DNA from: a virus
DNA: 54,019 nucleotides
Strand: one strand, 5' to 3'
IMG/VR virus record: IMGVR_UViG_3300030329_005776
Location: 25,055 to 79,073 of that record
Shown here: piece after piece, positions 1 through 47,268 of the stretch
Layout: each line of letters opens with the position of its first letter
How positions within the stretch are numbered: the first letter of the stretch is position 1
Made by a program: the position numbers and the translations under genes
Notes under the pieces: model-generated
Told to the model about the DNA's origin: nothing
The model's database searches: none
Seen by the model: the letters and a program-made list of their open reading frames with translations, nothing else

Positions 1-768
1 TTAGTGCGTGAAGTAGTTAAGCGGACTATGAATAAAGATACAGCCGTCAGAAATAAAACTGTCGCTATTTTAAAAGAAGCTTTTAGTGCTAAAAATGAAT
101 TAGGGAAAGAACTACGACTCTTTAAGACCTTAATGGAAACAACAGGAGTTTCTGCAAGGATTGGCGAAAAATTAATTCAAGAGACTAAAAAGGAATATAA
201 GAATCTAAATGAAAAGAAAATATTCTCAGAACAAAGCACATTAATTAAGAAAATTAATAAAGAAATTTCTAAATCTGTGTTCTCCAATTTCGTTCCAAAC
301 TACAAAGACATTGCAACTCTTTCGCAGATATTTGGCGAAGATGTAGGAGTTAAACATCGTGTTGTTTTAGAGGAAAAGGTCTTGTCTAAGATAACCCACA
401 AAAAACAAAAATATGAAAAAAATGATAAAGTAAACAATCTTGTTGTTAATAAGTTTGTTGAGAGGTTCAATAACCAGTATAAAACAACCCTATCAGAAAA
501 TCAAAAACATTTGCTTAATAAATATATTTTATCATTTTTAGATAACGGTGTTGACTTGAAATTATATATAAACGAGGAAATAAGTCGACTTAAAAGTATT
601 ATTAAAGAATCTTTTAATTTAGAAGAACTAAAAAAAGATAATAAGATGCTCGATAAAATGAAGAAAGTACAAGAGCTTCTAGAGTCTTGCAACAAAAAGC
701 CTTTAGATAAAGAAATGATTCAAAACATCCTTAAAGTACAACTAGTTGCCAAAGAGGTACAAAGCTAA
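1..768 (+). CDS. Hypothetical helical protein, probably 5'-truncated by the window edge
   Basis: I do not recognise this protein. The frame is open to the first base, so the start may lie outside the window. Possible starts inside it are GTG at 4 and ATG at 28. The product is lysine- and glutamate-rich and looks almost entirely alpha-helical, with likely coiled coil in the last third. It has no signal peptide, membrane segment or catalytic motif that I can see. Its stop codon overlaps the ATG of the next gene (TAATG), so the two are probably translationally coupled. In T4-like phages the portal and small prohead-core genes sit just upstream of the gp21 protease, so a head-assembly or core role is the contextual guess. 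Confidence 0.7.
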   Translation, partial: LVREVVKRTMNKDTAVRNKTVAILKEAFSAKNELGKELRLFKTLMETTGVSARIGEKLIQETKKEYKNLNEKKIFSEQSTLIKKINKEISKSVFSNFVPNYKDIATLSQIFGEDVGVKHRVVLEEKVLSKITHKKQKYEKNDKVNNLVVNKFVERFNNQYKTTLSENQKHLLNKYILSFLDNGVDLKLYINEEISRLKSIIKESFNLEELKKDNKMLDKMKKVQELLESCNKKPLDKEMIQNILKVQLVAKEVQS

Positions 769-1367
769 TGGCAGCGTTTAATGTAAAGGTTGAAGGCCCA
801 AGAGGCACTTTTGAAGATGTGCCACCGCCTCCCAAATTTAAAGTTAAGGTGGAATCACCAATTGCAGCAAAGGTAAATTTAAAGGCCAGAAAAACAATGG
901 ATGGAAATATATTAATAGTTGACCATCCAGAAATAGATATTGTTTTATCGCCTTCGCAGAATAAAGTTTTTGCTCTATCTAAAAATCAATATGGTGATCA
1001 TGTGTACGCAACACAGTCCAGGCTATTTGAACACTTAGCTAAAAATGGAGTTGTCGATGCATCTACAATTCATGGTGGAAATATATTTGGTTCTCTAGAA
1101 GGTACTATAATGACTCCGTTGGAACCCGCAAAGGTTGATCCAATTCAAATGTCTCTATACACTGTAGTTTCATTCTTGTTAGAAGAGAAGCCACATTATC
1201 TCGCAGTTCAGCAATATAAGATTGATTTTGAAAAAGATCTTCTTGATCCTAGCGAGAAAGATTCGACTGAACTTGGCGAAGTACCACACGAACCATTTAA
1301 GGGCACTGTTAACCAATTTACTGGATATCCTGCTCAATATGGTTTAACAGGCTTTACTGGGTATTAA
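768..1367 (+). CDS. Hypothetical head-module protein
   Basis: This 199-residue protein belongs to no family I recognise. The N-terminus is proline-rich (VPPPPKFKVKV) and is followed by short beta-prone stretches. The C-terminus is rich in Gly, Tyr and Phe, with the repeated element TGY or TGF (FTGYPAQYGLTGFTGY). There is no signal peptide or membrane helix. The start codon overlaps the preceding stop by one base. It lies between a helical protein and the DUF1360-like gene, upstream of the prohead protease, so a minor virion or assembly role is likely but unproven. Confidence 0.75.
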   Translation: MAAFNVKVEGPRGTFEDVPPPPKFKVKVESPIAAKVNLKARKTMDGNILIVDHPEIDIVLSPSQNKVFALSKNQYGDHVYATQSRLFEHLAKNGVVDASTIHGGNIFGSLEGTIMTPLEPAKVDPIQMSLYTVVSFLLEEKPHYLAVQQYKIDFEKDLLDPSEKDSTELGEVPHEPFKGTVNQFTGYPAQYGLTGFTGY

Positions 1368-1398
1368 TATTAATTTAAAAAGAGATATAGAGGTTTAA

Positions 1399-1728
1399 AT
1401 GGATTTATTATATTTTGTTCTTGCTGCATACGGCATGACCCAAATAATAATTTTGGGATCAATATTTAATAAAGTACGCCCTTCTAAAAGTTGGCTCAAG
1501 GGTTTTGGAAAGCTTTTTCATTGTCCAATGTGCATGGGCTTTTGGGTTGGTGTGTTTTTGTTTGGAATTAATGGTTATACAGAACTATTTACATTTGAAT
1601 ACAATTTAGCGAATGCACTTGTATTGGGGTGCTTAAGCTCTGGTACGAGCTATTTGTTAAGCGTATTGGTTAATGATTTTGGGTTTAAAATAACTCATAA
1701 AAACGAGGGAGATTGTTATGTTGACTAA
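1399..1728 (+). CDS. DUF1360-like membrane protein with CxxC motif
   Basis: The 109-residue product begins with a hydrophobic helix (about residues 3-22). It then has the motif FHCPMCMGFWVG (about residues 46-57), followed by further hydrophobic segments. A CPxC/GFW motif next to membrane helices is characteristic of the DUF1360 family, which many T4-like phages carry and whose function is unknown. The start is an ATG behind the AGAGG at about 1389-1393. It sits among head genes, yet the protein should be membrane-inserted, which suggests a role at the membrane during head assembly or infection; that is inference. Confidence 0.75.
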   Translation: MDLLYFVLAAYGMTQIIILGSIFNKVRPSKSWLKGFGKLFHCPMCMGFWVGVFLFGINGYTELFTFEYNLANALVLGCLSSGTSYLLSVLVNDFGFKITHKNEGDCYVD

Positions 1729-1798
1729 AAAATGGAAACTACAGCCCGTTCGACGTTGTTGCAGCGGCTCTAGTATCGGGCGGCTTGAGGCCGCGTAA
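1718..1798 (+). CDS. Possible 26-residue basic peptide, or a structured leader of the protease gene
   Basis: A short ORF starts inside the end of the DUF1360-like gene, behind the ribosome-binding site GAGGGA (1705-1710). It ends just before the protease gene. It would encode a basic peptide with two adjacent cysteines (VRRCCSG). The DNA is visibly more GC-rich than its neighbours. A hairpin, GCGGC-TTGAG-GCCGC, spans 1780-1794. The segment may encode a peptide, may be an RNA structure controlling gp21 translation, or both. T4 has small prohead-core genes (67 and 68) in this position, but I see no clear similarity. Confidence 0.35.
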   Translation: MLTKKWKLQPVRRCCSGSSIGRLEAA

Positions 1799-1811
1799 AG
1801 GAAGGGAAAAG

Positions 1812-2447
1812 ATGTCTAAAGGACTTTTAAGAGAGTATTATGAACTAAAGTGCGATGATCGTGGCTGCAAAGATCTCTTGAATGAGAGCGAAAAAAGGAT
1901 GATCAACGATGGATTTTTGTTGTTTCCTGCAAAGTTGCAGCAATGTGATGTACAAAATGGGAATGGTAGAGTCTACGGTCGACAAGTTTTAGAAAGAGAG
2001 ATCGAAAACTATGCGAAAATGGTTGCTGAAGGTCGCGCTATTGGCGAATGTGACCATCCGGACGATAGTGTGATAAATCTTAAAAATGCTTCTCACAAAG
2101 TTGTTAGAATTTGGTGGGATGGAGATGACGTTATAGGGGTAATTCAATGCCTTAAAACCCCTTCCGGTCAAATCCTAGAGGGCCTATATAAAAGTGGCGT
2201 TAAATTTGGATTCTCTTCCAGAGCCTTGGGCTCTCTAGGTCCATGCCCAAGAGGCACCGGAGCACAGATGGTTCAAGATGATCTTCAATTGATTTGTTTT
2301 GATGCTGTTTCCGAACCTTCAGCACCAGAGGCATATATTCTAGATCAAAAAGTAAAGATGTATGAAAACGTAGAAAAAGATTTGTCTAAAATTTTTACAA
2401 AAGGTGATAGAATTAATAGAGCTTTAAATAATATCTTTATAGGGTGA
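1812..2447 (+). CDS. 21: Prohead core protease (T4 gp21-like)
   Basis: This is the serine protease of T4-like phages that digests the scaffold and trims head proteins after prohead assembly. The 211-residue product shows the family layout: His in ECDHPDD (about residue 82), Ser in FGFSSRALGSL (about 135) and a conserved LICFDAVSEPSAPEA block (about 160-174). The length matches T4 gp21 (about 212). I chose ATG 1812 over an upstream TTG at 1785 because AAGGAAGG (1798-1805) is a strong ribosome-binding site at the right distance and the N-terminus then matches the family start. It is followed closely by a short core-like protein, and the scaffold and capsid genes come next. Confidence 0.92.
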   Translation: MSKGLLREYYELKCDDRGCKDLLNESEKRMINDGFLLFPAKLQQCDVQNGNGRVYGRQVLEREIENYAKMVAEGRAIGECDHPDDSVINLKNASHKVVRIWWDGDDVIGVIQCLKTPSGQILEGLYKSGVKFGFSSRALGSLGPCPRGTGAQMVQDDLQLICFDAVSEPSAPEAYILDQKVKMYENVEKDLSKIFTKGDRINRALNNIFIG

Positions 2448-2450
2448 TAC

Positions 2451-2888
2451 ATGAAAAAATCAGAATTAAAAAATGTTTTAAAACCATTGATTAAACAATG
2501 TGTTAAAGAGGTGCTATTAGAAGAGGGCGTTTTATCTAATATTGTTTCTGAGGTTGCAGTTGGGCTTAAACCACTATTAACGGAAAATAGGAATTATAGT
2601 GCTGAAAAAAGCGTTGCGACCTCTAATCAAGATGCACTTCTACAACAACAAAGAGCAGAACTTGAAGAAGAGAAGCAGAGAATGATAAAAGAACAAAAAA
2701 GAAAAATTTTAAATGCCACCGGATTTGGTAATGAAATTTTTGAAGGCGTAGATCCAATTTCTTCTGTTGGTGTTCCTGATGAAAGTCCATCTCACGGAGC
2801 GCTATCAGGGATTGACCCTAAAGACCCAGGAGTAGATATATCTGGTATCATGGCTCTTGGTGGCCACAAATGGAATAAGTTAGTTTAA
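2451..2888 (+). CDS. Probable prohead core or internal head protein
   Basis: This 145-residue protein starts with an amphipathic, lysine-rich helix ending in VLLEEG. That resembles the hydrophobic-x-Glu cleavage sites used by gp21-type proteases. A Gln/Glu-rich coiled coil (about residues 60-85) follows. The C-terminal third is Gly/Pro/Asp-rich and ends in a conserved-looking LGGHKWNKLV. It lies three bases after the protease stop. Together these features suggest a core component that gp21 processes. No enzyme motif is visible and I cannot give a family name. Confidence 0.7.
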   Translation: MKKSELKNVLKPLIKQCVKEVLLEEGVLSNIVSEVAVGLKPLLTENRNYSAEKSVATSNQDALLQQQRAELEEEKQRMIKEQKRKILNATGFGNEIFEGVDPISSVGVPDESPSHGALSGIDPKDPGVDISGIMALGGHKWNKLV

Positions 2889-2898
2889 AGGAAATAAA

Positions 2899-3126
2899 AT
2901 GGCAAAAACAATTAATGTAGAAGTTAAACCGAGAGACAAAAACGAACATCCAGAAAGAGTGATAAAAAGATTTATGAAAAAAGTAAAAAATAGTAAAGTT
3001 TTAGAACTCTACAAAGAGCGAATGAGATATGAGAAGCGTTCTGACAAAAAGAGAAAACAAAAGGCAAGAAGAAAAAAACTTTTAGAAAAACTTCACAATC
3101 AAAGAATTAAGGAATTAGGAAACTAA
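2899..3126 (+). CDS. rpsU: Ribosomal protein bS21-like
   Basis: The 75-residue, extremely basic product matches the bacterial small-subunit protein S21 in size and pattern. It opens with a short beta-like segment (INVEVKPRD). The block ERVIKRFMKKVKNSKVLE (about residues 19-36) corresponds to the family's ALRRFKR...GVL region, and YEKRSDKKRKQKARRKK corresponds to the YEKPTxxRKR..A tail. In bacteria, bS21 sits near the anti-Shine-Dalgarno end of 16S rRNA and helps initiation. Phage-encoded S21 is known from marine phages and may bias ribosomes toward viral mRNA. Its place between head genes, apart from any translation gene, is odd and suggests late expression. Confidence 0.85.
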   Translation: MAKTINVEVKPRDKNEHPERVIKRFMKKVKNSKVLELYKERMRYEKRSDKKRKQKARRKKLLEKLHNQRIKELGN

Positions 3127-3151
3127 TTAGAGTTAAAAGGAGCAGTGAAAT

Positions 3152-3562
3152 ATGTCACATGAAATAGCAAATCCCGGACGTTCACCAGGGTTGAGAAATG
3201 TTGGTTCTTATCAGGCTTCGGGCCACCCGTTTGTTTATGGGGCGACTGTGGCAGACGGTGCAGAAACAAAAGTATCATTTCCCTTTGTTACAAAGTCGAT
3301 AACGGTGATTGCATCAGGTACGACTAATGACCCTCTTATTGGAATTACATTTAATTCAACAAGTAGTGCTGGAAATGTAATATCAGGAAAACACTATATT
3401 ACAATGGACAGTAGCGGAGATAGTATGACCTTTGACGTTAAATGTAAAGAAATTTATATTCACGCCAAAAACGCCACTAGCGGTTTCGAAATGTATGCCT
3501 CCTTAACTAATATTCCCACACATAGCATGTATGACCTCACAGGTTCAGGACTCACTGACTAG
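3152..3562 (+). CDS. Small beta-rich virion protein (hypothetical)
   Basis: This 136-residue protein is rich in Ser, Thr and Gly with alternating hydrophobic stretches, as expected for a beta-sandwich. No cysteine pattern suggests metal binding; the only Cys is in DVKCKEIY. A good ribosome-binding site (AAGGAGCAG, about 3138-3146) precedes the ATG. Its stop overlaps the GTG start of the LamG-type gene (TAGTG), so the pair is probably co-translated. Context and composition suggest a head decoration or head-fibre component. I do not recognise a named family. Confidence 0.7.
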   Translation: MSHEIANPGRSPGLRNVGSYQASGHPFVYGATVADGAETKVSFPFVTKSITVIASGTTNDPLIGITFNSTSSAGNVISGKHYITMDSSGDSMTFDVKCKEIYIHAKNATSGFEMYASLTNIPTHSMYDLTGSGLTD

Positions 3563-4401
3563 TGGGTTTTCATAAGGCCATCGCTGGTAAAATAAGAGCG
3601 GGTGGCAAAACCGGCAGATCTGGATTTGGCAGTAGCACTGGAGGCAGATCACGCCGTTGGGCCGGAACAATCCCAACCGCTTACTGGAGAGTCCAAGGAA
3701 TTGCTGCAGACGCAACCACTCTCCCAGATGTATCAAAAGCAGGTAATGATTTAGATGGCACTTTAGCTGGAACTGTTGATGAAACGGGCGCTGATGCCAC
3801 GTGGAATACAACTACAACTGCTAATGGCAGCAACCAAAGCCTTCGTTTTAACGGCACTGACAATAAGGTGACAATAGCTTATAACGCAAAGCTTAAGCCC
3901 GACAATTCGATTAAAAAGCTGTCTGTTTCTATGTGGATCAAGACTGATCAAAATAGTGATTATCTGATGGTCACCGAAGAAGACGCTCATTCACCGACTG
4001 CCGGTTGGTTTTATGGCGCAATTGGCGTAGGTACAACTAATAAAGCAAACGTTTATTGGAATACTGCCGGTAGTCCTGGCTGGAAAGCTAGCACAACATC
4101 TGTACAAGATGACAATTGGCATCACATTGTGCACGTATATAACGGAGATGCAACAAACGAAATAAGCATTTATATCGATGGCGTTTTAGAAACTGAATCT
4201 GGCGCTCAAAGTGGCAATTTTGTTCTTGGCAATGTACCAGTATTGTTAGGATATCGCCGCCATTCAGGCGCAAATTATTATAAATATTATATGGATGAAA
4301 TAGCGTACTGGACAGATATAGCTCTCACTGCAGATCAAGTTACAGACCTATATAATAAGGGAAAAGTTCAAAATTGTTTTGCAGGAATTAGAAAGTCATA
4401 A
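3562..4401 (+). CDS. LamG/concanavalin-like jelly-roll virion protein
   Basis: The 279-residue product starts with a basic Gly/Arg/Ser-rich segment (about residues 1-35). A LamG-like fold follows. Its landmarks are SLRFNGTDNKVTI (about 92-104), LSVSMWIKT, DDNWHHIVHVYNG, EISIYIDGVL, and a closing MDEIAYWTDIALTADQV. These are the usual signatures of laminin-G/concanavalin domains, which bind carbohydrate or protein surfaces. It probably decorates the capsid or binds host or particle glycans. The GTG start overlaps the preceding stop, and no other start nearby has a better ribosome-binding site. No signal peptide is present, as expected for a virion part. Confidence 0.8.
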   Translation: MGFHKAIAGKIRAGGKTGRSGFGSSTGGRSRRWAGTIPTAYWRVQGIAADATTLPDVSKAGNDLDGTLAGTVDETGADATWNTTTTANGSNQSLRFNGTDNKVTIAYNAKLKPDNSIKKLSVSMWIKTDQNSDYLMVTEEDAHSPTAGWFYGAIGVGTTNKANVYWNTAGSPGWKASTTSVQDDNWHHIVHVYNGDATNEISIYIDGVLETESGAQSGNFVLGNVPVLLGYRRHSGANYYKYYMDEIAYWTDIALTADQVTDLYNKGKVQNCFAGIRKS

Positions 4402-4465
4402 TATTAATGTATGACTGAGCCGTTCCCCTCTTTAAAATATAAAAGTCATTTACATGTTTGTCAAA

Positions 4466-4473
4466 CTATTTAT
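4466..4473 (+). promoter_or_regulatory. Candidate late promoter element CTATTTAT before the scaffold gene
   Basis: CTATTTAT lies 31 bases upstream of the gp22-like gene. The same element, usually preceded by AA or TA, occurs before several other virion genes in this window at 18-52 bases from the start codon. I infer that it is the -10-like element of a phage late promoter. Confidence 0.45.
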
Positions 4474-4504
4474 TCTTGAAAAACTGTTTTAAAGGAGCAG
4501 AAGT

Positions 4505-5662
4505 ATGTCTAATATGTTGGAACAAGCTATTATCGATGCCGAGTCATTAAAAGAAGCCGCCCGTCAAAGCGCTGAAGAAAAAATTGTAGAGCACTTTTCG
4601 AAAGATATTAAAGAAGCCGTCAATATGATCTTGGAACAAGAGGAAATGTTTGGACTAGGAGATTTCGGCACAATGGCCGATACGCAAGCCTATGATCCAA
4701 TGGCAGCCGCAATGCCAGCAGCCATGACACCAGCCGCCCCTTCAGTTGTTGATGTCGAGGCAGAAGAAAATACGAAAGATAATGGTAAATTTGTTGTAGA
4801 TCAGTTGCCATATGCGGCAACCACAGACAGTAAAACATTTGTAAGTATCGACTTGGACCGACTTGAAGAGTCAATAAGACAAGAACTTGACGAAAACTCG
4901 ATGGGAGTTGAAAGCTTGGAAGAAGAGTACGATCTGGAAGAAGCGCTTCTTTTTGAAGAGCCCGTACCTGAAGACGAAGATGACGACGATTCCGACGTCG
5001 GAGATGAAGATGATGATTCTGTTAACGAGAGCATTACACAAATGATTAAAGATGTTTTGGCAGAAGAAATGAGTGATCTTCTGGATGAGGATGAAGAGGA
5101 GCATATGCCACTCTTAGAAGAAGAAACAGAGGAAGAAGAAACAGAGGAAGACACAGACGACAAAAAAGAACTCACTCCTGCACAAAAGAAACTTCCTCAA
5201 GCATTACAGGATAAAATCCTTAGTGAATCTAAAACACTTAAAACAAACAACAAATCTCTCTTAAAAGAGCAAAAGACACTTAACAAAAAAGTCCATTTAC
5301 TAGAAGAAAAACTAGAGAAATATGGCACAGTCATTAATAAGCTTCAAGAGAAGCTTAATGAAACTAATTTGGCAAACGCTAAATTATTATATCAAAACCG
5401 CGTTTTGGATAGCGACTCCTTGAATGAGCGACAAAAAGATAGAATTGTCGAAACTATCATGAATGCAAAAACAGTTGAAGAAGCAAAAATTATATATGAA
5501 ACTCTTCAAAGTGCAGTGGGAGCTAACTCATCTAGACGTAAGCCAAAATCACTGAACGAAGTTGTGACTAAACGCTCTTCAGCCTTTATGCCTCGCAAAG
5601 AGGAAAAAAGGGTAGATCCCTTTACGGCAAGAATGAAAGCTCTTGCTGGAATTAAGGACTAG
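4505..5662 (+). CDS. 22: Prohead core scaffold protein (T4 gp22-like)
   Basis: Position immediately before the capsid gene, strong acidity and coiled coil identify this as the gp22-type core scaffold. Residues about 120-240 are dominated by Asp and Glu runs. Residues about 225-320 form a helical coiled coil (LLKEQKTLNKKVHLLEEKLEK). The C-terminus is basic (FMPRKEEKRVDPFTARMKALAG) and probably contacts the capsid. Several hydrophobic-x-Glu tripeptides offer gp21 cleavage sites, as expected for a scaffold that is digested away. At 385 residues it is longer than T4 gp22 (269), mainly through the acidic stretch. AAGGAGCAG gives a strong ribosome-binding site. Confidence 0.85.
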   Translation: MSNMLEQAIIDAESLKEAARQSAEEKIVEHFSKDIKEAVNMILEQEEMFGLGDFGTMADTQAYDPMAAAMPAAMTPAAPSVVDVEAEENTKDNGKFVVDQLPYAATTDSKTFVSIDLDRLEESIRQELDENSMGVESLEEEYDLEEALLFEEPVPEDEDDDDSDVGDEDDDSVNESITQMIKDVLAEEMSDLLDEDEEEHMPLLEEETEEEETEEDTDDKKELTPAQKKLPQALQDKILSESKTLKTNNKSLLKEQKTLNKKVHLLEEKLEKYGTVINKLQEKLNETNLANAKLLYQNRVLDSDSLNERQKDRIVETIMNAKTVEEAKIIYETLQSAVGANSSRRKPKSLNEVVTKRSSAFMPRKEEKRVDPFTARMKALAGIKD

Positions 5663-5695
5663 ATTTTTTATTTTATAAAGGAGGAGAAAAAAACA

Positions 5696-7483
5696 ATGTC
5701 TATACTTCAAAAATTAACAGAAGGTATCGTTAATCGCGATATGAAGAAGGAAGGCGCCGCTCTGCTTAACAAGTGGGGTAAAACCGGACTTCTAGAGGGT
5801 CTTGGAAGTGAGAGTGCTAAAAACAGTATGTCTCGTCTTCTTGAGAACCAAGCAAAAGAGCTTCTTAGAGAGGCTTCCACGATGGCAGGTGGTGATGTCG
5901 AGGGCTTCGCAGCAGTCGCATTCCCAATCGTTCGTCGTGTTTTCGGTGGCTTGATCGCCAATGATCTGGTCAGTGTCCAGCCCATGAGTCTACCTTCGGG
6001 TCTGATTTTCTTCATGGATTTCACTGCTGGAGGTGACCGCCTGTCAATGAAGGGCCCTGAGGGTGCCGATTCACTATATGGCGGTGGCAAAGTCGGTCAG
6101 GAAATCACCGAGGGTGTAACTCTTACGGGCCGAAATGCTGAAGGCAGCTTTTATGAGCTTAATAATGGCTATTCTTCGCCAACCGGTTCGACAACGCTTG
6201 TTCACACAATTGTTGCCTCTGGTACATTTGGTGCAGATCCAGACACTGGTTCGGATTTATCGAGGGCTCAAGTTGAAGAGATTCTTCAATGGGATCCTGC
6301 TGTTGTTTCTGGTACAACCTCATACGCAATTGCTGCTGTCGAGCTTACTGGTACTAGTAATGATGTAGATCAGTTCAATTATAAAAACTTGATTGCACTT
6401 GTAGCCAGAGATGGCTCCAATGATCCTGGTACGTATGACGCCAACACCCCTCAAGCTCGTCGTTTGACTTGCTTTGCTGCTGGTACCGGCTCAGAGGGTA
6501 AATCTGCCACTCAAACTCAAAGACTTCTTGTCGTTGGTTTGCGCGACAATTCCACTGGTGCTGCCGTTGAGGCATCAATGAACACAACTGAAACTTATGA
6601 GTTCCCGTTGACTGACAACTTTGGTGGTACAGCCGCCGCAGGCGCCGGTCAAGCGATTGGTGCGGTTGTTGGCGACGATACGTGGGGTCTTGAGAATAAC
6701 GAAGCCATTCCTGAGATTGATCTTAAGGTAGATTCCGTGTCCGTCACGGCAATCACCAAAAAGCTCAAAGCAAAGTGGACTCCTGAACTCGGTCAGGATC
6801 TTAATGCTTATCACAACCTTGATGCAGAGGTTGAGCTTACTTCAATCCTTTCTGAGCAGATTGCTCTTGAGATTGACAGAGAGATTCTTGAGGATCTGAT
6901 TAAAGGTGCAACTGCCGGTACTTATTACTGGTCGCGTTCACCTGGGCTGTTCGTAAATCGTACAACCGGTTCTGAGATTGGTGCATCTTCGGCTGCTCCT
7001 GACTTCACCGGTACTGTTTCTGAGTGGTATGAGACACTTCTGGAAACGGTTAACGATGTTTCAGCACAAATTCACCGCAAGACGCTTCGTGGTGGCGCAA
7101 ACTTTATTGTTTGTAGTCCAGAGGTTGCTTCGATTCTTGAGTTTACTGCTGGTTTCCGTGCATCGGTTGCTGTCGATGAGAACAAGGGCACTGCAGGCGC
7201 TCAAAAGGTTGGTTCGGTTAGTAAGAAATGGGACGTTTACGTCGATCCTTACTTCCCCCGTAACGTGCTTCTTGTAGGACGTAAGGGCAATAGCTTCCTT
7301 GAGAGTGGCTATGTATACGCACCTTATGTACCGTTGCAAGTTACTCCCACTATCTTTGGTACGGAAGACTTCGTACCACGTAAGGGTGTCATGACTCGTT
7401 ACGCCAAGAAGATGGTTCGACCTGATATGTATGGTCTGGTTGTTGTTCGAGGTCTCTTAGGTGAGGCTGGAGCTACTGCCTAA
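5696..7483 (+). CDS. 23: Major capsid protein (T4 gp23-like)
   Basis: This 595-residue protein is the precursor of the major head subunit. The N-terminal region resembles T4 gp23: a helical delta domain (SRLLENQAKELLREA) followed by AFPIVRRVFGGLIANDLVSVQPMSLPSGLIFFMDF (about residues 75-109), typical of gp23. Probable gp21 cleavage is after LRE (about residue 59). The C-terminus (FGTEDFVPRKGVMTRYAKKMVRP) is also family-like. It is longer than T4 gp23 (521), with a beta-rich insertion around residues 150-330. A strong GGAGG site precedes the ATG. The gene is followed by a terminator, and its codon use is more GC-rich than its neighbours', consistent with high expression. Confidence 0.96.
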   Translation: MSILQKLTEGIVNRDMKKEGAALLNKWGKTGLLEGLGSESAKNSMSRLLENQAKELLREASTMAGGDVEGFAAVAFPIVRRVFGGLIANDLVSVQPMSLPSGLIFFMDFTAGGDRLSMKGPEGADSLYGGGKVGQEITEGVTLTGRNAEGSFYELNNGYSSPTGSTTLVHTIVASGTFGADPDTGSDLSRAQVEEILQWDPAVVSGTTSYAIAAVELTGTSNDVDQFNYKNLIALVARDGSNDPGTYDANTPQARRLTCFAAGTGSEGKSATQTQRLLVVGLRDNSTGAAVEASMNTTETYEFPLTDNFGGTAAAGAGQAIGAVVGDDTWGLENNEAIPEIDLKVDSVSVTAITKKLKAKWTPELGQDLNAYHNLDAEVELTSILSEQIALEIDREILEDLIKGATAGTYYWSRSPGLFVNRTTGSEIGASSAAPDFTGTVSEWYETLLETVNDVSAQIHRKTLRGGANFIVCSPEVASILEFTAGFRASVAVDENKGTAGAQKVGSVSKKWDVYVDPYFPRNVLLVGRKGNSFLESGYVYAPYVPLQVTPTIFGTEDFVPRKGVMTRYAKKMVRPDMYGLVVVRGLLGEAGATA

Positions 7484-7512
7484 AAACTAATTTAGTTTAG
7501 TTTTAAACTTGA

Positions 7513-7543
7513 CCCCGGTTTCTTCGGAGACCGGGGTTTTTTA
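7513..7543 (+). terminator. Rho-independent terminator after the capsid gene
   Basis: A 10-bp stem, CCCCGGTTTC paired with GAGACCGGGG (one G-U pair), closes on a TTCG tetraloop and is followed by TTTTTT. This is a textbook intrinsic terminator, 30 bases after the capsid stop. It insulates capsid expression from the neck genes, which have their own candidate promoter. Confidence 0.93.
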
Positions 7544-7628
7544 TTTCCCACAAAGTAAAATACTTTCAAAAACAGCGTTGCTCAAATTTTGACGGCCCCA
7601 ATTTTTTGAGATTTTACTTTTTAAGGAA

Positions 7629-7636
7629 CTATTTAT
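7629..7636 (+). promoter_or_regulatory. Candidate late promoter element CTATTTAT
   Basis: CTATTTAT sits 20 bases before the next ATG, in the gap between the capsid terminator and a new gene. A new promoter is expected exactly here, because transcription from upstream should stop at the terminator. Confidence 0.5.
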
Positions 7637-7656
7637 TATAATCAAGGAGATTCCCC

Positions 7657-7938
7657 ATGGGCAAGAAAAGAAAAATGATAGCAAAAACTCAGAAATATGG
7701 TAAAAAGTATGCTCAACATCCAGCTTTGAGCACTCAGGAAGTTGAGGTCGAGGAAGTTAAATTTGAGCCGATTGTCAATCCGACTATAGAGGCGCCTAAA
7801 GAGAAAACTGTCAAGGTAGAACCAAAAGAGGCTCCAAAACCAAAAGAGGCTCCAAAAAAGACAACCAAGACGACCACAAAAAAGAAATCAATGTGGCCCA
7901 GCGCTAAAAAAAGCACAAAGACCACTTCTAAGAAATAA
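7657..7938 (+). CDS. Lys/Pro-rich basic protein (hypothetical)
   Basis: The 93-residue product starts with a basic segment (MGKKRKMIAKTQKYGKKY). A short acidic middle (VEVEEVKFEP) follows, then a low-complexity PKEAPK repeat and a Lys/Thr-rich tail (KKTTKTTTKKK). The tail resembles histone H1-like DNA-binding tails. It may bind packaged DNA or bridge head proteins, but this rests on composition only. AAGGAG precedes the ATG. It stands directly after the capsid terminator and ahead of the neck genes. Confidence 0.75.
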   Translation: MGKKRKMIAKTQKYGKKYAQHPALSTQEVEVEEVKFEPIVNPTIEAPKEKTVKVEPKEAPKPKEAPKKTTKTTTKKKSMWPSAKKSTKTTSKK

Positions 7939-7964
7939 CATTTAGTTTTTTGTCTCTCTCTCAA

Positions 7965-7972
7965 CTATTTAC
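7965..7972 (+). promoter_or_regulatory. Candidate late promoter element CTATTTAC
   Basis: CTATTTAC is a one-base variant of the late motif. It lies 18 bases before the gp13-like gene, and the gene's ribosome-binding site (GAGAGGAG) follows almost at once. The weaker match makes this call less certain than the other sites. Confidence 0.35.
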
Positions 7973-7990
7973 TGAGAGGAGATCAAATGA

Positions 7991-9289
7991 ATGGCCACAC
8001 CCACTTTAAGTCCAGTTTCACAAACCAGCGCAGTTGTGCTAACTACAGGCAGCGCTCCGTCTGACGTTGAAGATAATACTAGTTTACCTTTTGGGCTGTA
8101 TTCAAATACAGCATCCGGTCTTTTTTCTCAATATTTTTGCTCTGGAGCCGCAGAACAAGTATCCTATACATATAAAAAATTAGGTGGCGATGTTTTAGAC
8201 ATTGAGTTGACTGATAACAATATTTATGCAGCTTACGAAGAAGCAGTTTTAGAATATTCTTACATTGTTAATATACATCAGGCTAAAAATGCACTTTCTG
8301 ATCTTCTTGGGGCTACAACTGGAACATTTGATCATGAGGGTCAACTACAATCTGGAGATTCCCTAGAGGGTACAAATGTTAATTTAAAATTCCCTCGATT
8401 CGAGTTTGCCTATTCTCGTCGAGTTGGATATGGAGTTGCAACTGAGATTGGTTTTGGTGGAGAGGTTCCAATTTATTCTGCTTCTTTTGATACAGTCACT
8501 AACCAGCAAGACTACGATTTGCAACAAATAGTTTCTTCATCTGCAGCAAATAGTTTATCTTTGCCATATTATGGTGAAGTGGGCGATAAAAAAATTAATA
8601 TAACGAAAGTTTATTATAAAACCCCGCATGCAATGTGGAGGTTTTATGGGTATTATGGTGGTATAAACACAGTTGGCAACTTGGCTAGTTATGGTCAGTG
8701 GGCAGATGACTCAACTTTTGAAATCATACCAACGTGGCAAAATAAGTCACAAGCTATGGCTTTTGAAGATGCCATTTACACCAGAAACAGTCACTATTCT
8801 TACGAGATTAAAAATGGAAGACTTCGCCTTTTCCCATCTGCTGTCGAATCGAGCCCAAGCAAAATTTGGATAGAGTTCTTTGTGGATTCAGATCCATGGT
8901 CAGAGCCAGACACAGAAGGGAGAGGTGGTAAATCTGGAATCGATGGTATTAATAATTTAAATACACTGCCTTACGAGAATTTACCTTATGAGAATATCAA
9001 CTCTATAGGAAAGCAGTGGATTAGAAGATTTGCCCTATCTCTCTCTAAAGAAACATTAGGAAATATAAGAAGTAAATTTGCGACTATACCAATTCCTGGT
9101 GATAGCGTTACTTTAGACGGCCCAGCGCTCTTATCACAGGCACAAGCAGAGCAAGAAAAGCTTAGAGAGGAATTAAAAACAACTCTAGATGAACTAACAT
9201 ATCACAAGCTGATGGCTGAAGACGCAGCACTTATGGAGTCAGTTAATACAATTAATAAATTAATTCCTTTAAAGGTATTTGTGGGGTAA
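7991..9289 (+). CDS. 13: Neck/head-completion protein (probably gp13-like)
   Basis: This 432-residue protein sits where T4-like genomes place the neck gene 13, just before the gp14-like gene. Residues about 60-95 (LGGDVLDIELTDNNIYAAYEEAVLEYSYIVN) have the adaptor-type pattern 'D-hydrophobic-E-L-T...AYEEAV..Y' of head-tail connector proteins. The middle is beta-rich with many aromatics. The C-terminus has a helical segment (EQEKLREELKTTLDELTYHKLMAEDAALM). It is larger than T4 gp13 (309). The assignment rests mainly on gene order and the N-terminal pattern. In the virion it should help close the portal and attach the tail. Confidence 0.65.
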   Translation: MATPTLSPVSQTSAVVLTTGSAPSDVEDNTSLPFGLYSNTASGLFSQYFCSGAAEQVSYTYKKLGGDVLDIELTDNNIYAAYEEAVLEYSYIVNIHQAKNALSDLLGATTGTFDHEGQLQSGDSLEGTNVNLKFPRFEFAYSRRVGYGVATEIGFGGEVPIYSASFDTVTNQQDYDLQQIVSSSAANSLSLPYYGEVGDKKINITKVYYKTPHAMWRFYGYYGGINTVGNLASYGQWADDSTFEIIPTWQNKSQAMAFEDAIYTRNSHYSYEIKNGRLRLFPSAVESSPSKIWIEFFVDSDPWSEPDTEGRGGKSGIDGINNLNTLPYENLPYENINSIGKQWIRRFALSLSKETLGNIRSKFATIPIPGDSVTLDGPALLSQAQAEQEKLREELKTTLDELTYHKLMAEDAALMESVNTINKLIPLKVFVG

Positions 9290-9294
9290 TTTAA

Positions 9295-9807
9295 ATGGCA
9301 GACGCAACAGACAAAAATAAGTGGTCACAACCTGCTTCACCTCCACCTCCATTATTTTTAGGAGAGAAAGAAAGAGATTTAGTAAAGCAGGTTAATGATG
9401 AACTAATTGAAAGAGTTGTTGGCCAAGAGATAATTTATTATCCCATAAGCCTGGAACATACCAATTTTCACCCGCTATATGGAGAGGCTGTAGAAAAAAG
9501 CTTCCTATCTCCAATAAGAGTCCATGTTTTGGTTGTGTGGGAAGGCTATGCCACCACAGTCAGCAATTTGGGTATTGATAAGAGATTATCTTTGACAGTT
9601 AATTTTCACAGAAGAAGGCTTACAGAAGACCAAGACTTATATATTCGAGAGGGTGACTTTATATTGTATGGTGATGACTTTTTTGAAATTGCAACAATTG
9701 ACTACCCAAAGCAGATATTTGGCCAAGGCCATGATGGTTGGGAACGAATATTCGAAGCTCAGGCCAAGTGTATAAAAGCAAGAGAAGGCACGTTTGATGC
9801 TAGTTAA
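9295..9807 (+). CDS. 14: Neck protein (gp14-like)
   Basis: The 170-residue product contains LVKQVNDELIERVVGQEIIYYPIS (about residues 30-53), the opening pattern of T4 gp14 neck proteins. A beta-rich body follows with EGDFILYGDDFFEIATIDYPKQIFGQ, which matches the family's 'GD.i.y.d..FEI..v' segment. It is shorter than T4 gp14 (256). The start is six bases after the previous stop. Together with the gp13-like protein it should form the neck to which the finished tail docks. Confidence 0.7.
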   Translation: MADATDKNKWSQPASPPPPLFLGEKERDLVKQVNDELIERVVGQEIIYYPISLEHTNFHPLYGEAVEKSFLSPIRVHVLVVWEGYATTVSNLGIDKRLSLTVNFHRRRLTEDQDLYIREGDFILYGDDFFEIATIDYPKQIFGQGHDGWERIFEAQAKCIKAREGTFDAS

Positions 9808-9824
9808 TTATAAAAGGGATTAAT

Positions 9825-10088
9825 ATGGAAGAGTACACAATATCAAGAAGTGACGGATGCACCGCAACTGGAACAAAAGTTGATGGTAAGGTAAACGGCA
9901 CCGTGACAGTAACTTTCCCTAATGGCGTAATTAAATTATTGGGTGATTATGTGTATAACGTACCCGTTGGTTTGCACCAAGAATGGGATGAAGATGGTGA
10001 TTTAGTTACCACATCTTTGTACAGTAATGACGGCAGACTGCTTGAAGTGGATGGCAAACCCATTCCAAATGACGAGGAGCAACCCTAA
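9825..10088 (+). CDS. MORN-like repeat protein
   Basis: The 87-residue product has MORN/YwqK-type repeats: GKVNGTVTVTFPNGVIKLLGDY, then VPVGLHQEWDEDGDLVTTSLYSNDGRLLEVDGKP. Each reads roughly 'hydrophobic-G-x-aromatic-x-x-D-G-x-hydrophobic'. Such repeats form open beta-sheet strips that often serve as spacers or protein-binding surfaces. The gene shares a base with the start of the beta-helix/gp15 gene (TAATG). It may support or bind the collar-region appendage proposed there; that is inference from position. Confidence 0.65.
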   Translation: MEEYTISRSDGCTATGTKVDGKVNGTVTVTFPNGVIKLLGDYVYNVPVGLHQEWDEDGDLVTTSLYSNDGRLLEVDGKPIPNDEEQP

Positions 10089-29815: not shown

Positions 29816-30184
29816 ATGAAACTAACGAAATCAAGACTTAAACAGTTAATCAGGGAAGAATGGCAAGCTGCATCTGCCGAGGGAATGGAGGTCGGTGAAG
29901 AACTACCACTGGCAAAGAAAGATAGTAGTTATATTAAACGCATGCGTGACGAAGTTAAAAAAGCTTATATTGATGAACTAGGCCAACTTCTAAGCAGAGA
30001 AACCGACGAACCACTAAAAGGTCATCAATTTGACAAATGGGTGCAAGCATTGACGATCACCCAAGGCAAAGATGCACGAATCGGTGGGCCCTCTATTTCG
30101 CAAGATGCGTCTGATGCACAAACCAAACTCCACCACACAACGGATACGGACCCCTCATACGCACAAATTGCTTATGAAGAGTAG
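29816..30184 (+). CDS. Small protein with N-terminal capsid-targeting-like peptide
   Basis: I recognise no domain in this 122-residue protein. The first 16 residues (KLTKSRLKQLIREEW) form an amphipathic basic helix ending in hydrophobic-x-Glu. Nearly the same start occurs in the next gene. T4 internal proteins have similar short N-terminal capsid-targeting peptides cleaved by gp21. The body is charged and Gln/Asp-rich and ends HTTDTDPSYAQIAYEE. A strong AAGGAGG precedes the ATG. The pair may be packaged and injected proteins; this is inference. Confidence 0.7.
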   Translation: MKLTKSRLKQLIREEWQAASAEGMEVGEELPLAKKDSSYIKRMRDEVKKAYIDELGQLLSRETDEPLKGHQFDKWVQALTITQGKDARIGGPSISQDASDAQTKLHHTTDTDPSYAQIAYEE

Positions 30185-30195
30185 AGAGCCTCAAT

Positions 30196-30732
30196 ATGAA
30201 ACTCTCACAAACTAGACTCAAGCAAATTATTAAAGAAGAGCTATATGTAATAATGGCCGCACTGGACCATGAGGAAAACTTTGTTAAAAAGCTTGAAGAA
30301 GGTCATGGCGGTGAAGGTTCAATGGCGAGAAAGCAACTTGCACGCACTGCTGAGTTGGCAACAATGATACAAGATTCTATTACAGATGAAACTAATCTTG
30401 AGGAATGGGTTGAGTCAAAGATAACAAAAGCTCAAGATTATTTAACTTCAGTTTTAAATTATATGCGTGGTGACGAGTTGGTTGATAAGCCCACCCTTCA
30501 AGAGCGCGGATTTGGTGAGGGAACTCCACCTTCTGGAGAATTTTATAAAAAGCAAGTTATAGAGGAAGATGAGCTAGAGGAGCGGAAACTTTCAAAAGCA
30601 GAAGACAAAGAAAAAGAGAAAGTCGTTAAAGGCATGAAAAAGAACAAATCAGATTTTGAAAAGCGATACGGCAAAGATGCTAAAAGCGTAATGTATGCGA
30701 CTGCAACCAAAATAGCTAAAGAAACAGCATAA
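30196..30732 (+). CDS. Small protein with N-terminal capsid-targeting-like peptide
   Basis: The 178-residue product starts KLSQTRLKQIIKEELYVIM, matching the beginning of its upstream neighbour, while the rest differs. Residues about 20-90 are helical (HEENFVKKLEEGHGG..., ARTAELATMIQDSI). The last 60 are strongly charged (EEDELEERKLSKAEDKEKEKVVK) and end with a basic segment that has a KSVMYATATKIAKE helix. The latter resembles short C-terminal motifs seen on several phage virion-associated proteins. Function unknown. The start is 11 bases after the previous stop and has a poor ribosome-binding site, so coupling is likely. Confidence 0.7.
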   Translation: MKLSQTRLKQIIKEELYVIMAALDHEENFVKKLEEGHGGEGSMARKQLARTAELATMIQDSITDETNLEEWVESKITKAQDYLTSVLNYMRGDELVDKPTLQERGFGEGTPPSGEFYKKQVIEEDELEERKLSKAEDKEKEKVVKGMKKNKSDFEKRYGKDAKSVMYATATKIAKETA

Positions 30733-31747: not shown

Positions 31748-31821
31748 GCCCTCGTAGCTCAGTTGGATAGAGCATCGGACTTCTAATCCGAGGGTCGCAG
31801 GTTCGAATCCTGCCGAGGGTA
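31748..31821 (+). tRNA. tRNA-Arg (TCT)
   Basis: Full cloverleaf in 74 bases: acceptor GCCCTCG/CGAGGGT, D arm GCTC...GAGC, anticodon stem TCGGA/TCCGA with loop CTTCTAA (anticodon TCT), T arm GCAGG-TTCGAAT-CCTGC. No CCA is encoded. It reads AGA, which AT-rich phages use often. Confidence 0.95.
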
Positions 31822-31839
31822 CTGTTCAAGGAGATAAAA

Positions 31840-32091
31840 GTGATTTTTAAAATAAAAGTTTTTTTGATTTTGTTGGCTCTTGCTGGATGTACAGTTCACT
31901 TCGAAGAAGAGTACATTCCATGTGGATATGACGAAACGCCTTATTATAACGATCCTGATGAATGTGTTGGCCCATGTTGTATCTGGCATGCAGAGGATAT
32001 TTATTATTACAGTGAGTGTGCAGAAGTTTGGTGTTATGAAGAAAATGCATGCGCATGGCAACTGTACGAATATTCTTGCTATGCAATTTAA
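31840..32091 (+). CDS. Small cysteine-rich lipoprotein
   Basis: The 83-residue product begins with a basic, hydrophobic signal (FKIKVFLILLALAGC) with lipobox LAGC, so it should be lipid-anchored after cleavage before Cys17. The mature part is acidic, Tyr-rich and has eight further cysteines (CGYDE, ECVGPCC, ECAEVWC, NACAW, YSCY), which suggests a disulfide-bonded periplasmic domain. The start is GTG behind AAGGAG. Possible roles are superinfection exclusion or lysis (outer spanin-like), but no motif decides. It stands alone between a tRNA and a new promoter. Confidence 0.75.
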   Translation: MIFKIKVFLILLALAGCTVHFEEEYIPCGYDETPYYNDPDECVGPCCIWHAEDIYYYSECAEVWCYEENACAWQLYEYSCYAI

Positions 32092-32093
32092 AC

Positions 32094-32122
32094 TTGACAA
32101 TTAACGAATGCTTTGGTAATAT
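32094..32122 (+). promoter_or_regulatory. Sigma70-type promoter giving a leaderless mRNA
   Basis: TTGACA (32094-32099), 17 bases, TAATAT (32117-32122). The next ATG is at 32129, six bases after the -10 box, where the transcript should begin. No Shine-Dalgarno sequence exists. Confidence 0.85.
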
Positions 32123-32128
32123 AAATTT

Positions 32129-32644
32129 ATGAATATATTTGCTATTGAAGGAACTGGTAATAATATTGATTGGGTTAAATCCGCTCAGTCACAAGATAAT
32201 TATCGTGTAGTTAAGATGATTTTGGAATCTTGCCAGATGTTGTGCACAGTGCTCAATGAACAGGCAGGAGAACAAATTACACCTTATCGCTCTACACACA
32301 AACATCATCCATCTACCAAGTGGGTTTGTAACTCATCAGCTAACTTTGAGGCTCTTGTTGAGCACACAATGGCGATGCTAGAAGAGTACACAGAGCGCTT
32401 TGGTAAAATACATAAATGTTTGTATGTGTTGGAAAAGTGTATGGATTTGTATGATCCGTCTCTTTTTCCCTCTAGCGAGCCAACACGATTGCCGTTAGCG
32501 ATGCCTTATGAATTTCATTCTGACAATATTGTCGAATCTTATCGCAAATTTTATGCTTCAAAGCCGAGAATGCGCTATCCGAAAAATAAAATTCCGCAAT
32601 GGTTTGTAAATTATCGCGGCGATAAAAAATACGATATTGTTTAA
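32129..32644 (+). CDS. Conserved phage protein, possibly related to pyrimidine-dimer glycosylases
   Basis: The 171-residue product shows a pattern common in phages: MNIFAIE at the start, YRVVKMILESCQMLCTVL (about residues 28-45), HKHHPSTKWVCNSSANFEALVEHTMAMLEEYTERFGKIHK (about 57-96), and a late LPLAMPYEFHS. The family is often linked to DenV-type pyrimidine-dimer glycosylases because of a similar helical fold and the 'H.VVKM..E..Q' element, but its reaction has not been settled to my knowledge. The N-terminal nucleophile of DenV (Thr2) is not obvious here. It has its own strong promoter and no leader. Confidence 0.75.
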   Translation: MNIFAIEGTGNNIDWVKSAQSQDNYRVVKMILESCQMLCTVLNEQAGEQITPYRSTHKHHPSTKWVCNSSANFEALVEHTMAMLEEYTERFGKIHKCLYVLEKCMDLYDPSLFPSSEPTRLPLAMPYEFHSDNIVESYRKFYASKPRMRYPKNKIPQWFVNYRGDKKYDIV

Positions 32645-32650
32645 AAAGTC

Positions 32651-32679
32651 TTGACAATTATAAAAATTTAAGATAGAAT
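32651..32679 (+). promoter_or_regulatory. Sigma70-type promoter for the Leu and interrupted tRNA genes
   Basis: TTGACA (32651-32656), 17 bases, TAGAAT (32674-32679). It lies 14 bases before tRNA-Leu and after the stop of the preceding gene, so it should drive the tRNA island. Confidence 0.82.
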
Positions 32680-32693
32680 GATTAAAATAAATT

Positions 32694-32777
32694 GGCCGAG
32701 TGGTGGAATGGTAGACACAACGGACTTAAAATCCGTTATCCGCAACGGGTGTGAGGGTTCGAATCCCTCTTCGGCTA
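32694..32777 (+). tRNA. tRNA-Leu (TAA)
   Basis: 84 bases with a class II long variable arm. Acceptor GGCCGAG/TTCGGCT includes G-U pairs. The anticodon stem ACGGA/TCCGT holds loop CTTAAAA (anticodon TAA). Variable arm TATCCGCAACGGGTG; T arm GAGGG-TTCGAAT-CCCTC. No CCA is encoded. It reads UUA. Confidence 0.93.
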
Positions 32778-32782
32778 CATAT

Positions 32783-32972
32783 ACCAGGGTAGCTCAGGTG
32801 GTCAGAGCGCCGTTAGTAGGAAGCCAAAGGTCCACACACGGAATCGCGTTGCAAGCGCACGGGGAATCGCCCCCACCGTAATTAGTGGCGATTGGGTCTG
32901 AGGTGGAAACACCCATGCAAGGTGGATCTATGTACGAAGCGGAGGTCGTTGGTTCAAATCCAACCCCTGGTA
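32783..32972 (+). tRNA. tRNA-like gene interrupted in the anticodon arm by a structured insert of about 116 nt
   Basis: Both ends form a standard tRNA: acceptor ACCAGGG/CCCTGGT (perfect), D arm GCTC...GAGC, T arm GTTGG-TTCAAAT-CCAAC, variable loop AGGTC and anticodon stem CCGTT/AGCGG. The anticodon loop is replaced by 123 bases (32815-32937). Within it an 8-bp helix, AGGTCCAC/GTGGATCT, encloses hairpins GCGTT-GCA-AGCGC, GGGG-AATCG-CCCC and GGTG-GAAA-CACC. GTA repeats flank the insert, so several splice points would give the same loop AGTACGA (anticodon TAC, Val), but U33 would then be G. The insert is too short for any group I intron I know. It may be a miniature intron, a decayed one, or a tRNA-like RNA with another job. 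Confidence 0.6.
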
Positions 32973-32994
32973 CTTTTTAATTAAGGAGGATTAA

Positions 32995-33132
32995 ATGGAA
33001 TTTTATATTATTGCTTTGTTTGGTTGCGTCGGCGTTATTGGGTATGCATATCATATGATAAAGATGCAAAAAGAAATTGAAGTCTTAAATGATAGAATGG
33101 ACGCTGAAATGCGAAGGTTCGAAGAAGAGTAA
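32995..33132 (+). CDS. Small membrane-anchored coiled-coil protein
   Basis: This 45-residue ORF lies between two tRNA genes behind a strong AAGGAGG. It has one hydrophobic helix (FYIIALFGCVGVIGYAY, residues 3-19) and a charged helical tail (KMQKEIEVLNDRMDAEMRRFEEE) that could form a coiled coil. The size and layout resemble small phage membrane proteins such as i-spanins or antiholins, but no motif fixes a function. It ends seven bases before tRNA-Met. Confidence 0.7.
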   Translation: MEFYIIALFGCVGVIGYAYHMIKMQKEIEVLNDRMDAEMRRFEEE

Positions 33133-33138
33133 ACAACT

Positions 33139-33211
33139 ACTCCCGTAGCTCAGTTGGTAGAGCAGGCGGCTCATAACCGCTCGGTCGTAGGTTCGAGTCC
33201 TACCGGGAGTA
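33139..33211 (+). tRNA. tRNA-Met-type (CAT)
   Basis: 73 bases: acceptor ACTCCCG/CGGGAGT, D arm GCTC...GAGC, anticodon stem GGCGG/CCGCT (one mismatch-like end) with loop CTCATAA, T arm GTAGG-TTCGAGT-CCTAC. A CAT anticodon may be elongator Met or lysidine-modified Ile2. The fully paired acceptor start argues against initiator. Confidence 0.93.
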
Positions 33212-33231
33212 CTTTAACTAGGGGGCAACAA

Positions 33232-34300: not shown

Positions 34301-35668
34301 TTGAATTATAGCGAACAAGAAGATTTCTCTCAATTTGGAAAGTCTTTCCAAGAAAATATGTGCCAAATGATTTTTGAAAGCAGAGGCTTTGCAGATCAAA
34401 TGAAGGAGGTGCTAAACATTAATTTCCTAGAGTTTAAATACTTGCAAGTGTTTGTGCGATTGATTTTCAATTATAAAGAAAAATACTCAAGACAGCCATC
34501 TGAATCTATAATGACAACGATTCTGAGAACAGAAATAGCAAATGAGAATGAGCTAATAACGAAGCAAATTCGTGACTTCTTTGCGCGCATGTCAAAGACC
34601 GAGGTGCAGGACGAAGAATATATTAAAGACACGGCTGTGGACTTTTGTAAAAAACAAGTTTTAAAAGAGGCAATATTAAAGTCAGTACCACTACTTAAGA
34701 AATCTTCTTTTAATGATATTCAGACGCTCATTAACAATGCTATGAAGCTTGGGAATGATAACGACGATGGATATTATTATATTGAAGATTTTGAAAAAAG
34801 GTTTGAAATTAAGGCTAGAGATCCTATCACCACAGGATGGAAAGTTGTTGATGGCTTGACTAAGGGAGGCATTGGAAATGGAGAACTTGGCGTGGTTATT
34901 GCGCCGACAGGCGCAGGAAAATCAATGGCCTTGGTGCATTTGGGCGCCCAAGCCGTTAAAGAAGGAAAAACAGTAGTTCATTACACTTTAGAGTTGGCAG
35001 ATACAATTGTTGCCTCTCGCTATGATAGTTGTATTACTGGGATTCCACTACAAGAACTTTTCAATAAAAAAGAGGAAATTTATGATGAAATTAAAGATAT
35101 TCCAGGAAAATTAATTGTTAAAGAATATCCAACTAAATCTGCTAGAGTGGAAACACTTCGTAATCATTTAGAGAAGTTACAACAACAGGAAATTTCGGTT
35201 GATATGATTATTGTAGATTATGGAGATTTATTACGCTCAAATTCTAAAAATGATGAGAAAAGACACCAGTTAGAATCTATTTATGAAGAGTTAAGAGGTT
35301 TGGCTCAAGAGAATTCATGTCCGATATGGACAGCATCGCAGACGAATCGATCTGGTTTAAATGCTGAAGTTATAACAATGGAGGCCATATCAGAAGCTTT
35401 TAACAAGTGTTTTGTAGCAGATTTCATTTTCTCTATCTCTAGGACTATTCAACATAAAAATAGCAATGGAGGAAGAATTTTTATTGCTAAAAATAGGAAT
35501 GGACCGGATGGCTTGGTGTATCCTATATTTATGGATACCGCTAATGTTAAGATTGATGTACTTCCGCAGATTGAGACATTTGATGAAATCAAAAAAAGCG
35601 AAGTTAAAAAACAAGAGCAGAGTTTGCAAGAGAAATATAAAAATTATAGAAAAAAGAGGGGAAATTAA
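34301..35668 (+). CDS. 41: Replicative DNA helicase (gp41/DnaB-like)
   Basis: The 455-residue protein has a helical N-terminal domain and a RecA-type motor. Walker A is APTGAGKS (about residues 201-208), then HYTLELADTIVASRYDS (about 227-243; the 'E' and 'R' of motif H1a/H2 region), Walker B MIIVDYGDLLR (about 302-312), and WTASQTNRSG (about 343-352). This matches T4 gp41 (475). It unwinds DNA at the fork. The start codon is TTG behind CGGAGG, which is weak and may limit translation. No primase gene occurs in the window. Confidence 0.92.
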   Translation: MNYSEQEDFSQFGKSFQENMCQMIFESRGFADQMKEVLNINFLEFKYLQVFVRLIFNYKEKYSRQPSESIMTTILRTEIANENELITKQIRDFFARMSKTEVQDEEYIKDTAVDFCKKQVLKEAILKSVPLLKKSSFNDIQTLINNAMKLGNDNDDGYYYIEDFEKRFEIKARDPITTGWKVVDGLTKGGIGNGELGVVIAPTGAGKSMALVHLGAQAVKEGKTVVHYTLELADTIVASRYDSCITGIPLQELFNKKEEIYDEIKDIPGKLIVKEYPTKSARVETLRNHLEKLQQQEISVDMIIVDYGDLLRSNSKNDEKRHQLESIYEELRGLAQENSCPIWTASQTNRSGLNAEVITMEAISEAFNKCFVADFIFSISRTIQHKNSNGGRIFIAKNRNGPDGLVYPIFMDTANVKIDVLPQIETFDEIKKSEVKKQEQSLQEKYKNYRKKRGN

Positions 35669-47057: not shown

Positions 47058-47268
47058 TTTTAATTGGAAGGGTGAACAAGCCATTGAAACATACGACTAC
47101 ATTCGTTCTTGGAAGATGGACTATCCAGAAAGTAATATTATAAAATACGTGACTAGGCACCCTTATAAGGGGAAATCTCTTGAAGATTTAAAAAAGGCGC
47201 GCTGGTATCTCAATCGCCTGATTGAAGAAGTTGAAAAAACAAAAGGAGGATCATGCGAGAAGCACTAA
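47023..47268 (+). CDS. DUF3310-like protein
   Basis: The 81-residue product has the DUF3310 pattern: INKPKHYNFNWKGEQAIETYDYIRSW (about residues 5-30), then NIIKYVTRHPYKGKSLEDLKKARWYLNRLIEEVEK. Members are small phage proteins, often annotated as nucleotide kinase-like, with no proven activity. The N-P-x-HY and KY..R...K...EDLKKA..YL blocks are both visible. It overlaps the zinc-ribbon gene at its start and the IMPDH-like gene at its end, so expression is coupled to nucleotide metabolism genes. Confidence 0.85.
   Translation: MTDQINKPKHYNFNWKGEQAIETYDYIRSWKMDYPESNIIKYVTRHPYKGKSLEDLKKARWYLNRLIEEVEKTKGGSCEKH

Follow-up and report, generated by a model that had tools for sequence, protein, structure and literature searches.

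A bS21-family gene at a fixed position inside the T4-type head operon of a phage clade

A gene for a protein of the ribosomal bS21 family was found inside a T4-type head operon, at a position that is fixed in the viral clade to which this DNA belongs. The window, that is, the whole stretch of 54,019 nucleotides that was analyzed, covers bases 25055 to 79073 of a 95,539-base virus record. The genes of the operon are arranged in the order terminase, portal, gp21-type protease, core protein, S21, scaffold, and gp23 capsid, with S21 two genes after the protease and four before the capsid gene. We consider it probable that the gene provides a late ribosomal substitution protein, made from the head operon and entering the 30S subunit of the host. 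The features concerned are as follows, with window coordinates.

1785..2447, plus strand: gp21-type prohead protease, likely start at 1812 (PF03420, E 4e-24; phrog_207)
2451..2888, plus strand: head-core-like protein of 145 amino acids (core145), directly 5' of S21; enriched in the protease-site motif
2884..2898, plus strand: ribosome-binding site of S21, AAAGGAA, of medium strength as judged from the sequence (duplex energy -4.9)
2899..3126, plus strand: bS21-family gene, 75 amino acids (PF01165, 32 bits; PDB matches to S21 only; under purifying selection)
3152..3562, plus strand: conserved protein of 136 amino acids, found after S21 in many relatives
3562..4401, plus strand: LamG-domain protein (PF13385, E 5e-15), an insertion present only in the nearest relatives, L001 and L002
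4505..5662, plus strand: probable scaffold at the gp22 position, from its position and conservation; enriched in the protease-site motif
5696..7483, plus strand: gp23-type major capsid protein (PF07068, E 2e-75)
7511..7538, plus strand: strong intrinsic terminator 3' of the capsid gene (12-pair stem with 7 G-C pairs, followed by a T run)

The names core and scaffold are based on position and on the protease-motif test described below, with no family match. Further 5' of the protease are the terminase and portal genes (outside the window), two conserved proteins, and a DUF1360 protein. The initial annotation had placed the S21 gene among head genes, between a core protein and virion genes, and the matches of the neighboring genes agree with this placement.

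The same annotation had read 2899 to 3126 as a 75-residue S21 gene and had proposed a profile search as a check. The open reading frame starts with ATG, comprises 75 codons, and is the sole S21 match in the whole 95,539-base record. Its product, a small and very basic protein, scored 32.0 bits against PF01165 (E 1e-7, residues 13 to 60), above the gathering score of 27. When the single window sequence was searched against the PDB with phmmer, all 14 matches were bS21; a profile built from 40 family members gave 29 matches, again S21 throughout (best E 5e-11), and the matched chains come from bacterial, chloroplast, and mitochondrial ribosomes. Among the 40 phage family members scanned, TIGR00030 matched all 40, PF01165 matched 39, and the phage S21 family phrog_21469 matched 33. 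The window protein itself fell under the equivalog cutoff of TIGR00030 (23.9 versus 28.95 bits); it is therefore a divergent S21 that is not filed as a cellular equivalog. An AlphaFold2 model (pLDDT 90.6) contained three helices, and the 14 fold matches returned by Foldseek from the PDB were all S21 chains, each of them weak individually (E 0.19 or more; best Z 5.6). On its sequence, the gene was thus confirmed as encoding a bS21-family protein.

The conservation of an IKRFMKK stretch among the first relatives was partly an artifact of the search pattern. We therefore remeasured conservation on loci found via the capsid and protease. In 80 relatives sampled without the use of S21, the bS21 signature RF ... 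(Y/F)-x-K-P-S ... R was retained, with F25 in 77/80, an aromatic residue at position 44 in 79/80, K46 in 73, P47 in 69, and S48 in 73; the window copy reads YEKRS instead of YEKPS. Like cellular bS21, the family has the PF01165 domain and the RF and YEKPS signature, and probably a helical fold. It differs in having Lys at position 30 in 76/80 members, where four aligned bacterial chains have Glu, and in a longer N terminus in many phage members. The gene evolves under purifying selection (dN 0.08 and dS 0.70 between the window and the relative L003), and the divergence of S21 was correlated with that of the capsid (Mantel 0.66, reached by 0/999 permutations).

The first relatives from IMG/VR were drawn with S21 itself as the query, and in these S21 always had the same head genes as neighbors and shared their strand. 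Relatives were therefore sampled again with capsid and protease alignments instead of S21, keeping the best 80 loci per scan. S21 was located between the protease and the capsid gene in 42/42 distinct operons in which both were present. The loci scored as lacking S21 had only one flanking gene recognized, and most of them end near that gene. Among the matches listed, S21 directly followed core145 in 85/91 loci and was on the head-gene strand in 96/96 loci. Because only the best 80 loci per scan were considered, "universal" applies to capsids about 56% or more identical to that of the window, and the alignments, built mostly from S21-bearing phages, may favor that clade. In a more distant clade sampled with the capsid of Microcystis phage Mel-JY01, S21 occupied the slot in 38/51 operons (best 80 loci), and several further head operons with S21 were found in bacterial-genome bins. 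S21 was absent from Flavobacterium immuto-like phages. In many relatives, longer runs of other genes separate S21 from the scaffold gene. The initial annotation had regarded a location within head genes as unusual for a translation factor. For this lineage it is not, since the position is fixed in the clade, and other phages are known in which bS21 and head genes lie together.

The S21 gene begins 10 nt after the stop codon of the 145-amino-acid gene and is separated by 25 nt from the 136-amino-acid gene. The stem at 7511 to 7538 is the sole clearly strong terminator on the plus strand within positions 1 to 10000. Since it comes after the capsid gene, S21 and the capsid gene probably share a transcript. 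This reading depends on how strong that single stem is, because intrinsic terminators overall were no more frequent in the scan than in shuffled sequences. Together with the 10-nt gap, the terminator position makes late coexpression of S21 with the head proteins probable, as the initial annotation had proposed. The T4 late promoter TATAAATA did not occur above chance frequency.

How might a bS21 made at this stage act? Under the reading that we favor, the late head operon would yield the phage protein together with the head proteins, and the phage protein would most likely enter host 30S subunits close to the 3' end of 16S rRNA, where the host bS21 is loosely bound and would be exchanged for it. 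Ribosomes active during particle production would then bear the phage version. Late expression and incorporation into host ribosomes are what the gene's identity and setting suggest; a bias toward phage mRNAs may follow and is the least certain step. Published work bears on this scheme. According to Mizuno et al. 2019, no ribosomal protein is encoded by viruses more often than bS21, which occurs mainly in aquatic ones, and the bS21 of HTVC008M enters E. coli 70S ribosomes, although the protein output of ribosomes with the phage version was only about 5% of normal (PMC6375957). Given this output in the E. coli assay, the effect of a phage bS21 on translation could be negative or host specific.

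The initial annotation had further suggested that AGGAG-type sites, strong before virion genes, would favor the mRNAs of those genes. This part was not upheld: Shine-Dalgarno strength did not differ between virion-side genes and other window genes (P = 0.40). With sites of the same strength elsewhere in the window, a preference for virion mRNAs is unsupported. Shine-Dalgarno sites preceded 80% of window genes, a figure somewhat inflated because the best of several candidate starts was taken, versus 16% of background ATGs. In Flavobacterium johnsoniae, Tyr54 of bS21 has been reported to help block the anti-Shine-Dalgarno sequence (PMC9723584). The window clade has mostly Arg, Ala, or Lys at this position, and the window protein has Lys. 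Across the sampled phages, Shine-Dalgarno signals were weaker where this residue was aromatic (raw P 1.6e-4); in a phylogenetic regression with 111 tips, P was 0.008 for signal strength and 0.075 for gene fraction. With 12 aromatic tips and clear exceptions (L299, L303, L304, and L316, which have neither Shine-Dalgarno sites nor an aromatic residue), this link is suggestive only.

A gene so closely embedded among head genes could encode a head protein, and we weighed this possibility in two forms. T4-type prohead proteases (T4 gp21) cleave after [LI]xE. The motif [LI]xE[AGS] was about 3- to 4-fold more frequent in core145, the scaffold, the protease, and the capsid than in their own shuffles, and its positions were conserved in the core, scaffold, and capsid proteins. 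In S21 it occurred at chance (0.09 versus 0.08), and the portal and neck proteins were likewise unenriched, which argues against S21 being a processed core protein. We therefore think it improbable that the S21 fold was recruited as a structural or nucleic acid-binding component of the prohead core and has lost its action on ribosomes. Such a role would suit the small, very basic protein and its fixed slot, which lies between the genes for core protein and scaffold wherever the operon is complete in the clade (best 80 loci), but the bS21 signature residues are retained, and the variation at the Tyr54 position partly tracks Shine-Dalgarno use. In the other form, the protein would be a genuine S21 that enters the head without being cleaved and is then injected, altering host ribosomes from the start of infection. 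Chen et al. 2022 had proposed that phage bS21 might be packaged (PMC9723584). A protein made beside the head core and free of protease sites would survive head maturation intact. Against this, S21 has no N-terminal leader of the core145 kind, no virion proteome with S21 was found in the literature searched, and the S21 gene of PA5oct, which is located elsewhere, is without the mass spectrometry note that many of its neighbors have, a weak piece of evidence. We consider packaging unlikely as well.

It is also very improbable that the gene is a passenger acquired from a host and of no benefit itself. bS21 is the ribosomal protein most common in phages (PMC6375957), and its distribution is patchy in the more distant clade (38/51, best 80 loci), as a passenger might be. 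This reading is largely refuted by retention and selection: S21 is universal in the window clade, is under purifying selection, and has diverged along with the capsid. A ribosomal role, put forward in the initial annotation as a function in translation, is therefore the likely one, favored by the retained signature and purifying selection, by the protease-motif test, and, suggestively, by the Tyr54 link. A stronger version is that virion production in this group of T4-type phages has bS21 as an obligate core gene: phage S21, possibly brought in by the head as well, would be built into late ribosomes, in a version tuned to the translation initiation of the host; we put this forward tentatively and think it less probable than not by a good distance.

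The presence of phage bS21 near head genes, its late expression, and its possible packaging were already published in 2022. Chen et al. found bS21 near head genes in many bS21 phages, with late transcription, and proposed late selective translation and packaging (PMC9723584). In their survey, a prohead protease was within ten genes of bS21 in 310/900 published phages (PMC9723584), and loci of the present type may therefore be among them. In their freshwater Bacteroidetes jumbo phages, as in the window, bS21 lies a few genes from the terminase, portal, prohead protease, and capsid genes, and it was transcribed late there and proposed to replace its counterpart in ribosomes, as we propose conditionally here. 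There, however, bS21 is on the strand opposite to the structural genes and the region is not transcribed as one operon, whereas in the window clade bS21 shares the strand of the structural genes and forms part of their operon. An aromatic residue at the Tyr54 position is universal in their bS21, in contrast to the Arg, Ala, or Lys noted above. Since the strand was the same in 96/96 loci, we regard the window S21 as a relative of their arrangement outside their five clades. The window-type slot is also retained at far lower capsid identity than in their phages.

The same slot and strand were found in Mel-JY01 (PP395634), in the order protease, one protein, RpsU, two proteins, scaffold, and capsid, RpsU being the name given to the slot gene in the phage's own record. 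Its capsid is about 38% identical to that of the window, its host is a cyanobacterium, and its S21 is too divergent for direct tblastn; a tblastn search of the window S21 against phage records gave no match, although this relative was found via the capsid. The pelagiphages HTVC008M and Mosig, Pseudomonas phage PA5oct, and Salicola phage SCTP-2 carry the same protein family, but their bS21 adjoins a ClpX/CobS-like ATPase, often near Hsp20 or ClpS, instead of lying in a head operon. In these four loci (L327, L328, L330, and L331, for HTVC008M, PA5oct, Mosig, and SCTP-2), bS21 comes directly after the ATPase or one short open reading frame away. The side of this ATPase is a second recurring place for phage bS21.

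Several other genes of the window were also observed. Short-helix starts outside the head operon (MKLTKSRLKQLIREE, MKLSQTRLKQIIKEE, and ...VYQLVREA) resemble one another; proteins at 29816 to 30184, 30196 to 30732, and 38126 to 38821 begin in this way, recalling the start of core145, and such helices may be leaders that target internal head proteins to the capsid. Alongside the T4-type virion, a DNA polymerase III alpha subunit of bacterial type (41970 to 45410) and a DnaB-like helicase (34301 to 35668) are present, as are an IMP dehydrogenase/GMP reductase gene (47253 to 48296), a GroEL-type chaperonin gene that runs past the window end (53502 to 54019), and three tRNA genes (Arg-TCT, Leu-TAA, and Met-CAT) within 31748 to 33212. 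The initial annotation had suggested that close S21 matches might reveal the host; no S21 relatives were found in the bacterial genomes searched. Capsid relatives in genomes were almost all in metagenome bins, and the nearest, an Acidiferrobacteraceae bin (L332), was too weak to name a host.

New here are the location of the slot within the operon and on its strand, the presence of S21 there in each of the clade's complete operons (best 80 loci), and the retention of the slot in phages whose capsids are roughly 36 to 40% identical. Further additions are the test for protease motifs and the observation that Shine-Dalgarno use is partly linked to the residue at the Tyr54 position. The evidence for S21 as a core gene in the window clade is stronger than before. 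Phage ribosomal proteins are usually regarded as optional, host-derived extras. The fixed bS21 slot in every complete operon among the best 80 loci argues that refitting ribosomes is part of making virions in this clade, and the cultured phage Mel-JY01, which has the same arrangement, makes this idea testable.
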